Assembly (NCBI GenBank): GCA_947627215.1 | Contig: CANQVD010000023.1 | Span: 1-55,169, forward strand | Length of the DNA stretch: 55,169 bases | Direction: 5' to 3' | From: an uncultured Eisenbergiella sp. | GTDB lineage: Bacteria > Bacillota > Clostridia > Lachnospirales > Lachnospiraceae | Shown: in pieces, positions 28,160 through 49,172 of the stretch | Position numbering within the stretch: position 1 is the stretch's first letter | Layout of the letters: the number at the start of each line of letters is the position of its first letter | Notes under the pieces: generated by a model | Databases searched by the model: none | The model's input: only the letters and a program-made list of their open reading frames with translations | Told to the model about the DNA's origin: nothing | Program-made: the position numbers and the translations under genes

Positions 28160-28190
28160 GTAAATAATATAAGTGAGGAGGCGTTGGCTT

Positions 28191-28472
28191 ATGGCAAATG
28201 TAAACGTGAACATCCGCATGGATTCTGATCTGAAGCGCCAGTTTGAAAAATTCTGTGAGGATATGGGTCTGACGATGAGCACGGCATTTAATATTTTTGC
28301 AAAAAAGGCACTCCGTGAATACCGTATCCCCTTTGAGATCAGCGGGGAAAACCCGAATTCCGAAACAAAAGAAGCAATTCAGGAAGTGAAGAGGATGAAG
28401 GCAGATCCAGGTCTCGGAAAGACATATACGGACATAGACCAGATGATGGAGGATCTCCTGTCCAATGTATAA
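28191..28472 (+). CDS. RelB/DinJ-family antitoxin
   Basis: 93 residues. The N-terminal ribbon-helix-helix (NVNIRMDSDLKRQFEKFCED, MGLTMSTAFNIFAKKAL) is the DNA-binding part of RelB/DinJ antitoxins. The C-terminal part (EAIQEVKRMKADPGLGKTY and DIDQMMEDLLSNV) would wrap the toxin. ATG 28191 follows GAGGAGG by about 9 bases. It overlaps the toxin gene by 8 bp (ATGTATAA), which gives translational coupling. The promoter is close to consensus and is presumably repressed by the complex. Confidence 0.93.
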   Translation: MANVNVNIRMDSDLKRQFEKFCEDMGLTMSTAFNIFAKKALREYRIPFEISGENPNSETKEAIQEVKRMKADPGLGKTYTDIDQMMEDLLSNV

Positions 28473-28737
28473 ATTAAGGCCGACGACAAGATTCCAGAAG
28501 GATCTGAAGCGTATACAGAAAAGGGGATATGATCTTTCGCTCCTTACGGAAGTCTTGAAAAAACTGGCAAATGGGGAAGCTCTTCCGGAGAAGAACAGAG
28601 ATCATCCGCTTGCAGGAAGCTATACAGGATGCAGGGAATGCCATGTGGCTCCGGATTGGCTGCTCATTTATGAGATCAGTCATGATGAGCTGATCCTGTA
28701 TCTGACCAGAACCGGGACACACAGCGATCTGTTTTAG
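28465..28737 (+). CDS. yafQ: YafQ-family mRNA interferase toxin
   Basis: 90 residues, a RelE-superfamily ribosome-dependent RNase. The catalytic histidines and aspartate of YafQ are in place: DHPLAGSYTGCRECHVAPDW gives two histidines and the Asp, and GTHSDLF gives the C-terminal His and Phe. Length is normal and the gene appears intact, unlike the AbiEii gene in the same island. It starts within the end of the antitoxin gene. Confidence 0.93.
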   Translation: MYKLRPTTRFQKDLKRIQKRGYDLSLLTEVLKKLANGEALPEKNRDHPLAGSYTGCRECHVAPDWLLIYEISHDELILYLTRTGTHSDLF

Positions 28738-28856
28738 GGAGCAGACTTTTTCAGACTGTATTGCCGGTGAGAAAAGCTGCCTCTGGGGACGATAGGAGAG
28801 GTTTTAAAGCTGCGCGCGTTTTTTTGCCGTATCAAAAGTACAAAGGATATAGAGCC

Positions 28857-28895
28857 ATGCTGTTAATGAATGCCTTTGCTCCATGCGAGGTTTGA
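28857..28895 (+). CDS. Leader peptide MLLMNAFAPCEV upstream of the MFS efflux gene
   Basis: A 12-codon open frame, too short for usual gene calls, with AAAGGA about 10 bases upstream. It lies inside hairpin-forming sequence 100 bp before the MFS start, and its codons 6-9 (GCC TTT GCT CCA) form one arm that can pair with the MFS ribosome site. Inducible resistance genes (erm, cat, mef/msr) use such peptides as ribosome-stalling sensors. An internal ATG at 28866 would give MNAFAPCEV. Confidence 0.55.
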   Translation: MLLMNAFAPCEV

Positions 28896-28993
28896 GGATA
28901 CCGCATGGAGCGATCGGGCCGTGAAAGGGTCCGTATCCTCAGACTTTGCGAGTTTGAGATTGCGATACGATAACGATTCAAAGGAGCAAAGTC
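28874..28993 (+). promoter_or_regulatory. Competing leader hairpins of the MFS gene (translational attenuator candidate)
   Basis: Pairings seen: GCTCCATGCG (28878-28887) with CGCATGGAGC (28902-28911); TGAGGATAC (28893-28901) with GTATCCTCA (28933-28941); GACTTTGC (28942-28949) with GCAAAGTC (28986-28993); CTTTGCTCC (28874-28882) with GGAGCAAAG (28983-28991). The last two cover the MFS ribosome site. All are perfect and some exclude each other. Confidence 0.65.
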
Positions 28994-28996
28994 AAA

Positions 28997-30310
28997 ATGA
29001 AGAAAACATATCAGGAACTGAAACCATTTCTGATCCTGTGGTCGACGCAGTCGCTGTCGCAGTTGGGCAGCGCCATGACGGGGTTCGCGCTGACGCTGTG
29101 GCTGTACGAGGAGACCGGGTCGGCGCTGCAGACGGCGTTTTTGTCCGTCTGTTCGTACACGCCGTATGTGCTGATGAGCATTTTCGCCGGAGCGCTCTCC
29201 GATCGCTGGGATAAAAAAAGAACGATGCTGGTCTGCGACGCGTTCGCCGCGTGCTGTTCGGTGACAGTGCTGCTTTTGCTGAAAGCCGGTTCGCTGCGGC
29301 CTGTCCATATGTATATCCTGAACGCGGTGAGCGGCCTGATGAACACGGTGCAGCAGCCTGCCGGCGAGGTGACGATGACGCTGATCACGCCGAAGGAGCA
29401 GTATCAGAGAACGAGCGGCCTGAAGTCATTTTCCAATTCGCTTGTCACGATCCTGCATCCGGTGTTCGCGACAGCGCTTTATGCGGCGGCGGGCATGGAC
29501 GGTGTGATCGGCGCGGATCTGGCGACCTTTGCCGTGGCTTTTGCGGCCCTGGCATTCCGGGTGCATATCCCGCCGGCGGAGGCGGGGCGTGCGGACAGAG
29601 CGGGAGAGACTGTTTTATCCGGTGTAAGGGAGGGGCTGGTTTATCTTTTCCGAAACGGCAGGCTCCTCTGGCTGATCCTGTTTCTCGCGGGTGTGAATTT
29701 CGTGGCGTCCGCGTTTGACGCGGTGCTGCCGCCCTATGTGCTTTCCCGGGAAAACGGCGGAACGGCGGTGCTGGGAGCCGTCACCTCATGCGCCGGGATC
29801 GCGACGCTGGCGGGAAGCCTGGCTGTGACCGTCCTTCCCGCGCCGAAGAACCGCGTCCGCGTGATTCTGTTGACCGTGCTGTTTTCTCTGGGAACGGAAA
29901 ATTTTATTCTGGCGTTTGCCCGGACGCCGGTGTGGTGGTGTATTGCCCAGATCGCCGGCTGGTCTGTGATTCCCGTCATGAACGCCAATCTCGACGTGAT
30001 CCTGCGCGGTACCGTCCCGCCGGGAATGCAGGGACGCATTTATTCCTGCCGGAATACGATGCAGTTCTTCACCATCCCCATCGGGACCCTCGCCGGCGGC
30101 TTTCTGGTGGATCAGGTCTGCGAGCCCTGGATGGCGCGAACGGCTCCGAATGGGCTCCCGGCGCGGATGTTCGGCGCCGGGAAGGGTTCCGGCGCCGCGC
30201 TGGTCATGTTTCTTTTAGGGCTTCTTGGCATCGCCGTATGCCTTTTGTTCGGCCGGATCCTCAGACTATATGAATCCGACGGTTCCGGCGCTTCCTTAGA
30301 GCAAAGTTAG
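28997..30310 (+). CDS. MFS drug efflux transporter, macrolide-efflux-like (DHA3)
   Basis: 437 residues with 12 predicted membrane segments. The order LWSTQSLSQLGSAMTGFALT, the loop SDRWDKKRTMLVCDAF (motif A), GLMNTVQQPAG, and GMQGRIYSCRNTMQFFTIPIG near 350 are typical of DHA3 transporters related to Mef macrolide pumps. A drug-export role is therefore likely; the substrate cannot be read. GGAGC lies 9 bases before the ATG and is covered by leader hairpins. Base use is close to that of the core genes, unlike the AT-rich loci before it. The next gene starts 51 bp later. Confidence 0.88.
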   Translation: MKKTYQELKPFLILWSTQSLSQLGSAMTGFALTLWLYEETGSALQTAFLSVCSYTPYVLMSIFAGALSDRWDKKRTMLVCDAFAACCSVTVLLLLKAGSLRPVHMYILNAVSGLMNTVQQPAGEVTMTLITPKEQYQRTSGLKSFSNSLVTILHPVFATALYAAAGMDGVIGADLATFAVAFAALAFRVHIPPAEAGRADRAGETVLSGVREGLVYLFRNGRLLWLILFLAGVNFVASAFDAVLPPYVLSRENGGTAVLGAVTSCAGIATLAGSLAVTVLPAPKNRVRVILLTVLFSLGTENFILAFARTPVWWCIAQIAGWSVIPVMNANLDVILRGTVPPGMQGRIYSCRNTMQFFTIPIGTLAGGFLVDQVCEPWMARTAPNGLPARMFGAGKGSGAALVMFLLGLLGIAVCLLFGRILRLYESDGSGASLEQS

Positions 30311-30361
30311 AGATTTTCGCGCTACAATCCTTTCCAAACGTATCAGACAGGGAGACTGTTC

Positions 30362-31192
30362 ATGAGAAAACGAAAGGAATGGCGGAGCTTTGCTCTTTTT
30401 CTGCTGCCCGGCTTTGCCGGAGTGTGCGCGCTGGTGCTGGTCCCGTTCGCGGATGTGACGAGGCGTTCCTTCGTCACGGCGGTGACGGAGCAGTATGTGG
30501 GGCTTTCCAATTACAGGCGGGTATTTGCCAACGAAGCGTTCCGGCTGGCGGTGAAAAACACCGTGCGGTTCACCGCGGTCAGCCTTCCGCTGCTGCTGGC
30601 CCTGGGACTGCTTCTGGCAATGCTGCTCTCCGGCCTGAAGGAGGCGCAGTTGTGGAAGTCTGTGTTCCTTCTGCCGATGGCGATGCCGGCGGCCACCGCG
30701 GCCATCGTCTGGAGGATGGCGTTTGCAAAGGGCGGTTTTCTGAACCTGGTTCTGGGGACGTCCATCGATTTCATGGAAACCGGCTGGTCCTTCTGGGTGC
30801 TGGTGTTCAGCTATGTGTGGAAAAATCTGGGGTATACCGTGATCCTGTGGCTGGCGGGGATCCATGCGGTCCCCGCGGATACGGTGGAGGCGGCCCGGGC
30901 GGACGGCGCGGGAACGGTCCGGCTCTGGCGCTCCATCATCCTGCCCCAGACAAGGGGCTCCTTTTTCACCATCGCCGTGCTCTCCTTTCTGAATACGTTC
31001 AAGGCTTTCCGGGAGGCCTATCTGGTGGCCGGCCCCTATCCGCAGGAAAGCATCTATCTGCTGTCCCATCTGTTCAATAACTGGTTCGCGTCCCTGGATG
31101 TGGATAAAATGGCCGCGGCCGCCGTCTGTATGGCGGGGGTGCTCCTGCTTTTTATCCTGCTGTTTTCGGCGCTCTGCCTGCGGGAGGATTAG
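30362..31192 (+). CDS. Sugar-type ABC transporter permease (MalF-like)
   Basis: 276 residues with six membrane segments and the inner-membrane permease signature EAARADGAG-x-LWRSIILP that contacts the ATPase. N-terminal FALFLLPGFAGVCALVLVP is typical for the CUT1 sugar family (MalF/UgpA). It is 4 bp from the second permease. A binding protein and an ATPase would be expected beside it; none is found within 10 kb on either side. GGGAGA precedes the ATG by about 6 bases. Confidence 0.9.
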   Translation: MRKRKEWRSFALFLLPGFAGVCALVLVPFADVTRRSFVTAVTEQYVGLSNYRRVFANEAFRLAVKNTVRFTAVSLPLLLALGLLLAMLLSGLKEAQLWKSVFLLPMAMPAATAAIVWRMAFAKGGFLNLVLGTSIDFMETGWSFWVLVFSYVWKNLGYTVILWLAGIHAVPADTVEAARADGAGTVRLWRSIILPQTRGSFFTIAVLSFLNTFKAFREAYLVAGPYPQESIYLLSHLFNNWFASLDVDKMAAAAVCMAGVLLLFILLFSALCLRED

Positions 31193-49040: not shown

Positions 49041-49141
49041 GATGCAGAGTAGGTCCCTATGCGTTAAGTGCCCGCCGGACAGAGAGTTGCCGGCGGGACG
49101 AAAAGCACCGCCTGTGTGCTTGCGGTATACGGACCGCATCT
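49041..49141 (+). ncRNA. Tetrahydrofolate (THF) riboswitch
   Basis: The conserved core is easy to see: P1 arms GATGC (49041-49045) and GCATC (49136-49140), GAGTAG, the invariant GCGTTAAGTG, a GC-rich P3 (CCCGCCGG/CCGGCGGG), then ACGAAAAGC and GCGGTATACGG. This matches the THF riboswitch found upstream of folT and folate genes in Firmicutes. It binds reduced folates and lowers expression of the transporter. Confidence 0.9.
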
Positions 49142-49172
49142 CGCTGCAGCGGAAGATAGCGGTTATTTTTAT

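Follow-up and report, generated by a model that had tools for sequence, protein, structure and literature searches.

A predicted translational attenuator with a 12-codon leader upstream of a Mef-like MFS gene in an uncultured Eisenbergiella sp.

This study provided computational evidence that the region preceding an MFS transporter gene in an uncultured Eisenbergiella sp. is very probably a translational attenuator, in which the MFS ribosome site would be opened by a ribosome halted at about codon 5 of a short leader frame. The gene lies in the window, i.e., the whole stretch of DNA analysed (55,169 nt, contig CANQVD010000023.1, assembly GCA_947627215.1). The computations showed a leader, helices that compete with one another and covary among relatives, and a switch that depends on the position of the ribosome; in the model proposed here, a drug would arrest the ribosome at the leader, the MFS gene would be induced, and its product would function as a pump. 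An earlier note on this DNA had proposed a leader peptide with competing hairpins controlling the MFS ribosome site, a proposal now supported by conservation, covariation, and in silico ribosome masking.

Concerning the mechanism, when no ribosome is halted on the leader, the MFS ribosome site would be mostly closed, with S1 formed and segment 3 paired with the site in H3; in an alternative closed state, likewise without a halted ribosome, a long helix E would form and leader codons 8-9 would pair with the MFS Shine-Dalgarno (SD) sequence (pairing 1:4). A ribosome near the leader end would hide segments 1 and 2, with the result that H3 forms and the site is closed. Only a halt with the P-site at about codon 5 (4-6, by the assumed footprint) would cover segment 1 and leave segment 2 free; E would then form and pull segment 3 from H3, opening the ribosome site. 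The sensor may be the N-terminal half of the peptide, which reads MLLMNA here and M-x-L-C-I-A in much of the family; it would cause the halt jointly with a drug bound close to the tunnel entrance or the peptidyl-transferase centre, while codons 8-12 would act mainly as an RNA switch. The features concerned are as follows.

28842..28847, + strand: SD-like AAAGGA of the leader ORF (read from the sequence)
28857..28895, + strand: leader ORF, MLLMNAFAPCEV, ATG at 28857, stop TGA at 28893-28895 (sequence; 100 distinct leaders tabulated)
28869..28874, + strand: codons 5-6 (AAT GCC), where a halted ribosome is predicted to have its P-site and thereby to open the MFS ribosome site (in silico masking)
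28878..28887, + strand: segment 1, 5' arm of S1, whose GCTCC can alternatively pair with the MFS SD in 1:4 (inverted-repeat search, alignments)
28885..28901, + strand: segment 2, 5' arm of helix E, comprising the end of codon 10, codons 11-12, the stop, and the next bases (inverted-repeat search, alignments)
28902..28911, + strand: segment 1', 3' arm of S1 (inverted-repeat search, alignments)
28933..28949, + strand: segment 3, 3' arm of E, the last 8 bases of which are the 5' arm of H3 (inverted-repeat search, alignments)
28978..28993, + strand: segment 4, MFS SD (AAAGGAG) and 3' arm of H3 (inverted-repeat search, alignments)
28997..30310, + strand: MFS transporter gene, 437 aa, ATG at 28997 (ORF and protein model searches)

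Leader frame, MFS gene, and pairings in the window

The leader has 12 codons, and its stop lies 101 nt before the MFS start; the 12-codon frame with a ribosome site described in the earlier note was borne out (28857-28895, with AAAGGA at 28842-28847). In profile searches, the MFS protein resembles Mef and MFS_3, with Mef(C) and Mef(A) as the closest curated resistance models, and its scores fall far short of the NCBIfam cut-offs of the Mef models (Mef(C), 96.2 against 870; Mef(A), 94.9 against 675; Mef(En2), 78.6 against 800; Mef(B), 74.3 against 800). The product is a putative efflux pump, and its gene may be inducible. Seven terminator-like sites were found in 28400-30450 and none within 28857-28997, the leader-to-MFS interval. 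Nothing in Rfam 15 reached its gathering threshold at the locus (the best in 28750-29050 scored 17.9 bits against 80), and the Rfam search of the leader gave no match with an E-value below 0.5. RelB-type antitoxin and YafQ-type toxin genes lie directly upstream of the leader (28173-28737), and a THF riboswitch is found at 49043-49148 of the window on the + strand (91.4 bits).

The inverted-repeat search, together with the sequence, revealed S1 as a perfect 10-bp helix (28878-28887/28902-28911). Pairing 1:4 is a perfect 9 bp joining 28874-28882 (codons 6-9) to 28983-28991, which includes the MFS SD. The core of E is a perfect 8 bp (28894-28901/28933-28940) and, with wobbles counted, the helix comprises 17 pairs (28885-28901/28933-28949). 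H3 is a perfect 8 bp (28942-28949/28986-28993) with a 5-bp TTTGA/TCAAA extension beyond a 3x3 internal loop, in which the GGA of the window's SD sits. Among the perfect pairings of 10, 9, 8, and 9 bp listed earlier, the first three hold and the fourth is 8 bp rather than 9; similarly, the 8-bp core of E had been seen, but the predicted ON helix is the whole long E helix. S1 and H3 are compatible, and E competes with both. E and H3 are mutually exclusive because both use segment 3; E shares three bases with S1, and the E core is located within the loop that S1 closes; the two helices therefore either compete or combine into an H-type pseudoknot, which S1 and the E core could form. The 171-nt stretch 28840-29010 folds at -55.3 kcal/mol, compared with -39.3 on average (sd 3.6) among 200 dinucleotide-shuffled sequences, none of which was as low (z -4.47). 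The leader ORF and the pairings were confirmed to be real and beyond chance, since they are conserved and covary in relatives.

Conservation of the leader and covariation of the helices

A protein search of the genome collection retained 80 MFS loci, of which 77 were assessable, L023, L043, and L077 being cut off before the leader. Among the retained loci are those of Claveliimonas bilis c-25 (L049) and Eubacterium ruminantium FB3002 (L087), both cultured. With the motif sought by pattern within 600 nt upstream of the MFS gene, the leader was found to be kept in 70 of these 77 relatives, commonly as M-x-L-C-I-A-x-A-P-C-R/K-V/A-stop. The earlier note would have been contradicted by homologues keeping the MFS gene and lacking the leader or stems, and this retention speaks in its favour. 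No leader was found within 600 nt in the other 7/77 (L026, L029, L031, L039, L065, L074, and L097); it is also absent at L013, and L027 has lost the downstream arms. Five of these loci are close MFS relatives (77-79% identity): L026, L029, L031, and L065 without the leader, and L027 without the downstream arms. We regard their losses as deletions or assembly joins; many loci are metagenome assemblies.

An in-frame leader is present at 72/72 motif loci, with a purine-rich SD-like word before the start in 71, although the start was chosen partly by this SD. The leader table was compiled from 117 loci (72 plus 45); removal of L117 and L027 left 115, of which 100 are distinct. The start codon stands exactly seven codons before S1 in 80/100 distinct leaders, that of the window included, and codon 13 is the stop in 93/100. 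Position 3 is Leu in 80 (with six codons used), Arg in 18, and Ile in 2, and position 5 is Ile in 76/100. Codons 2, 3, and 4 show 10, 3, and 10 residue types, whereas the lowest numbers reached among 500 column shuffles were 12, 4, and 11. Since the same shuffles never gave as few residue types at these codons but did match the variety at codons 5-7, the comparison showed the leader peptide to be under selection at codons 2-4. Amino-acid changes at codon 9 or 10 (ALCKV in L135, L137, and L139; APRRV in L114 and L123) are accompanied by compensating alterations of the S1 partner, and codons 8-12 appear to be held largely by the RNA.

The helix arms in the 100-leader table were picked by best complementarity, which favours pairing, and fairer counts come from two alignments. 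Alignment A1 contains 46 loci, taken from 49 of up to 125 nt with L040, L046, and L078 dropped by hand; an earlier step had excluded 17 longer loci, 3 lacking an SD match, and 4 near-duplicates. Alignment A2 contains 35 more divergent loci of 41 candidates (L014, L034, L075, L108, L130, and L139 left out). In A1, 90.5% of the E cells were paired, compared with at most 48.3% in slid controls, and 42 double-change cells were counted against a shuffled mean of 16.4 and at most 11 in slid controls; RNAalifold selected E unaided. For S1 and H3 together, 91.7% of cells were paired (slid controls at most 45.8%), and the six core pairs of H3 were formed in 46/46 loci. In A2, the paired cells amounted to 97.8% for S1, 97.5% for the E extension, and 91.8% for H3, with double changes in 5/9, 2/8, and 2/8 pairs, respectively. 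By these counts, a conserved helix holds the ribosome site of the MFS gene sequestered, more weakly in the clade of the window, where the GGA lies in the internal loop.

Covariation of four stems had been named as a check in the earlier note; S1, E, and H3 are conserved and covary, while the pairing of codons 6-9 with the SD, although present at 9 bp in the window, is conserved among relatives only in its CTCC:GGAG core. In a second group of loci (L120-L127 and L135-L141), the E core has been exchanged; in most of these loci the new sequence differs but is still complementary, as judged by eye, and L122 has no clear core.

In silico ribosome masking

The position of the ribosome was modelled by masking a footprint at each codon in turn; relative to the first P-site base, the masked stretch began 15 nt upstream and ended 12, 15, or 17 nt downstream (P+12, P+15, and P+17). 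Pairing probabilities came from thermodynamic folding, which ignores pseudoknots and kinetics. Codons 2-10 and 12 were tested at the 92 of 100 distinct loci that have an SD match within 260 nt, whereas the GGAG-accessibility and P+17 runs used 37 of the 72 motif loci. The codon giving the most open ribosome site was codon 5 in 86/92 loci with P+15 and codon 6 in 85/92 with P+12; with P+17 it was codon 4 on average (37 loci). In the main group (76 loci, P+15), H3 had a probability of 0.60 and 1:4 of 0.31 without a ribosome; with the ribosome at codon 5, these became 0.21 and 0.00 and E reached 0.80; at codons 8, 9, 10, and 12, H3 was at 0.95-0.97. The 16 loci of the second group showed the same behaviour. 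A gain above 0.2 was obtained in 69/92 real loci and in 33/368 shuffled ones (shuffled from codon 8 to the SD), and 7/92 loci were predicted to be open without any ribosome. In silico, therefore, a ribosome positioned at one place on the leader allows a competing helix to free the site.

At the window locus (P+15), the openness 1-P(H3)-P(1:4) reached 1.0 with codon 5 in the P-site and 0.88 with codon 4, whereas codons 6-10 and 12 gave no more than 0.02; by this measure the window switches completely. Measured by GGAG alone, the effect was weaker: a gain above 0.1 was found in 23/37 real loci against 20/148 shuffled ones, and 4/37 loci lost more than 0.05 (L034, L042, L059, and L067). By this measure, codon 5 (0.71) offered the window no advantage over late positions (0.75 at codons 6-12), because its H3 leaves the GGA in an internal loop flanked by helices.

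An ON signal from a ribosome halted at the conserved A-P-C or on the stop codon was rejected, as H3 closes in silico with the ribosome there; the stall at A-P-C is also disfavoured by the variation of APC to ALC or APR with compensating S1 changes.

Candidate inducers

Erythromycin-resistance pentapeptides have Val/Ile at position 5; of their pattern (Leu/Ile3 with Val/Ile5), the window leader has L3 but N5. A macrolide acting on the switch is a plausible inducer, at somewhat below an even chance: the nascent M-x-L-x-I would meet the tunnel-bound macrolide, and the ribosome would halt since codon 6 is a sense codon. Among the distinct leaders, 82/100 have Leu/Ile at position 3 and 72/100 combine it with Ile/Val at 5, which resembles the resistance pentapeptides and MsrDL as described in passages of PMC10314930 and PMC2928234. 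In those passages, Leu/Ile at position 3 is critical in the pentapeptides, as are L3 and I4 in MsrDL (PMC10314930), and resistance peptides have 4-6 residues, the ribosome stalling when a sense codon replaces the stop (PMC2928234). The Mef proteins as nearest curated resistance models also favour a macrolide, as does the M-L-C-H-... leader of a sibling MFS clade, whose stall is predicted mostly at codon 9-10, close to the stall of ErmBL at Asp10 (PMC4935803). The Asn5 of the window leader, Arg3 in 18/100 leaders, and a similar leader at a CatA-like gene argue in the opposite direction. That CatA-like locus, L167 (leader MKFCIAVFPCKA), carries the MFS-type sensor and points instead to a phenicol or another peptidyl-transferase-centre drug working on the same switch as in cat leaders, which we consider possible, though well below an even chance. 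The cat-86 leader halts the ribosome after the pentapeptide MVKTD. The switch is also found upstream of two Cfr genes, and Ala occupies position 6 in 63/100 leaders, chloramphenicol and linezolid favouring Ala as the penultimate residue (PMC8987054). A penultimate Ala6 would place the P-site at codon 7, however, where the site is only partly open (median 0.31, main group, P+12). Moreover, the CatA-like L165 and L166 have a different sensor and no peak at the expected place, the CatA scores are under the NCBIfam cut-off, and neither one CatA-like relative on a plasmid nor three mobile cfr genes carry the element.

A general sensor of translation rate or amino acids, resembling trp attenuation and without a specific drug, is unlikely. 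Its segments compete as in trp-type attenuators, and slow decoding anywhere at codons 4-6 would suffice to open the switch; however, the leaders have no run of codons for a single amino acid (position 4 is mostly C/A/M, 5 I/E/N, and 6 A/V), and several contexts are resistance-type genes. With no such codon run in the 100 distinct leaders, an amino-acid starvation leader was rejected. It is highly improbable that the region is a pure RNA element, such as a riboswitch or thermometer, with an incidental ORF. The RNA is indeed conserved though the reading frame over it varies between gene contexts; against this stand the in-frame leader at every motif locus, nearly always behind an SD-like word (which partly guided the choice of start), and the restriction of residue types at codons 2-4 beyond that of any column shuffle.

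Occurrence of the switch in other gene contexts

Covariance model R1 gave matches in 34/299 genomes of the family and 17/291 of the class, with the genome of the window counted in both. Of the 29 family loci read besides the window, 28 have this MFS by blastp, and L126 has a relative at 44% identity; all 14 class loci read have this MFS (52-65% identity). Eight further matches comprised MFS genes (L155, L157, L158, and L159), a CatA-like gene (L160), an esterase (L156), a CD3324-family gene (L161), and a false match (L162). Model R2 matched in 33/391 class genomes, the window's own included, and 11/388 phylum genomes; its training set contains L156 and L158-L160, the recovery of which is not independent, and two class matches of G672 and those of G412, G689, and G673 were left unread. 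The 22 R2 loci read include five MFS (L163, L164, L168, L169, and L177), three CatA-like (L165, which is L160 again, L166, and L167), two Cfr above three NCBIfam cut-offs (L170 and L172), and seven CD3324-like loci (L173, L175, and L178-L182), of which L180, like L161, was profile-tested and the others were assigned by eye. The remainder were a methyltransferase-like locus (L171), remnants (L174 and L176), a doubtful locus (L184), and one without the element (L183). The weak matches L162 and L183 were rejected as having no recognisable element, and L171, L184, L174, and L176 were set aside as doubtful or remnants.

Over one RNA, the leader reads APCKV, LHAKS, or SMQSL, depending on the frame. 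Masking of 12 other-context loci (L171, L175, and L184 excluded), with leader starts set by eye as in the sibling MFS clade, placed the best P-site 6-11 nt before S1 in 10/12 real loci and 16/144 shuffles; this geometry together with a gain above 0.1 was found in 9/12 and 5/144, respectively. The CatA-like L165 and L166 misfit this geometry, and the gains at L173, L179, and L181 were small (0.09-0.13). With only modest R2 E-values (1e-5 to 3e-3 per genome), individual Cfr and CD3324 loci could be chance matches; the argument for their membership is the agreement in gene family and geometry. In the sibling MFS clade, 9/16 loci have another leader on the same plan, with the stall predicted at codon 9 or 10 in 7/9 and at 8 and 12 otherwise. 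This leader is mostly M-L-C-H-x-x-I-x-L-[D/S]... (L015, L016, L142, L143, L144, L147, L148, L150, and L152), and a protein search for it in plasmids gave only two weak Streptomyces matches (E 6).

The chromosomal Cfr genes L170:1501-2639 (+) and L172:466-1613 (-) are preceded by the switch, with leaders MFNRNIKVTHNRLHAKPDVLGDACME and MFNMNIQVTHNRLHAKSDVLGDICME. Upstream of mobile cfr, cfr(B), and cfr(C) and of one plasmid CatA-like gene, R2 found no element (0/4), and two plasmid-labelled gut MFS genes carry it (2/2). Small proteins of the CD3324 type occur repeatedly behind the switch (L161, L173, L175, and L178-L182), with weak Mor-like similarity for L161. The PF00756 esterase gene L156:1171-2052 (-) has the leader MKFCIVVTPCKVK, and its E and H3 are quite different in sequence yet complementary.

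Taken together, we lean slightly towards one modular attenuator RNA family of Bacillota, in which exchangeable drug-sensing N-terminal peptides would be read in different frames over a fixed switch (S1, E, and H3), with the P-site about 6-11 nt before S1. Such a family would control Mef-like MFS, CatA-like, chromosomal Cfr, esterase, and CD3324-type genes, and if it is real, the uncharacterised genes under its control become candidates for resistance functions.

Comparison with known attenuators and significance

As modelled, the switch is a variant within the known logic of erm-type translational attenuation. The ermC attenuator follows a four-segment scheme, and cat-86-type leaders halt the ribosome after about five residues under translational control. 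The window model resembles the latter in both the halt and the level of control, while the cat-86 leader sequence is not known to resemble that of the window. Chloramphenicol stalls the ribosome on cat-86-type leaders according to a portion of PMC4191407, which also describes the competing-segment logic of trp attenuation that the window switch shares. According to PMC4935803, the ermB-type attenuators have a short leader with its own ribosome site, the site of the gene is held in a hairpin, and a ribosome halted at one leader codon lets an alternative hairpin release it, all as proposed here. In contrast to the erm type, the leader sequence is unrelated, segment 2 lies within the last codons and stop of the leader, segment 1 itself can pair with the SD, and the controlled gene is a Mef-like MFS.

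The mef(E)/mef(A) attenuator (leader MTASMRLR) likewise places a leader peptide upstream of an MFS efflux gene. According to PMC4335068, the mef(E) attenuator is Rho-independent and transcriptional; it differs from the window, where no terminator-like site stands between leader and gene and the peptide is another, and the earlier note's listing of mef-type genes among the leader-stall analogues does not hold in this respect. MsrDL (MYLIFM) is also a short leader with Leu3 controlling an antibiotic-resistance gene, but it arrests at its own stop codon and acts on transcription, as stated in PMC10314930, whereas here H3 stays closed in silico when the last codon occupies the P-site. No description of this leader was found in the open-access literature, which is no proof of its being unpublished, as most subscription papers were outside the scope.

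If the proposed attenuator is right, gut Clostridia hold a widespread and apparently undescribed class of drug-sensing attenuators. The switch would then be a sequence signature for inducible resistance-type genes that protein homology alone leaves unnamed, and the naturally varied sensor peptides sharing a single RNA scaffold may advance the understanding of how short nascent chains and antibiotics arrest ribosomes.
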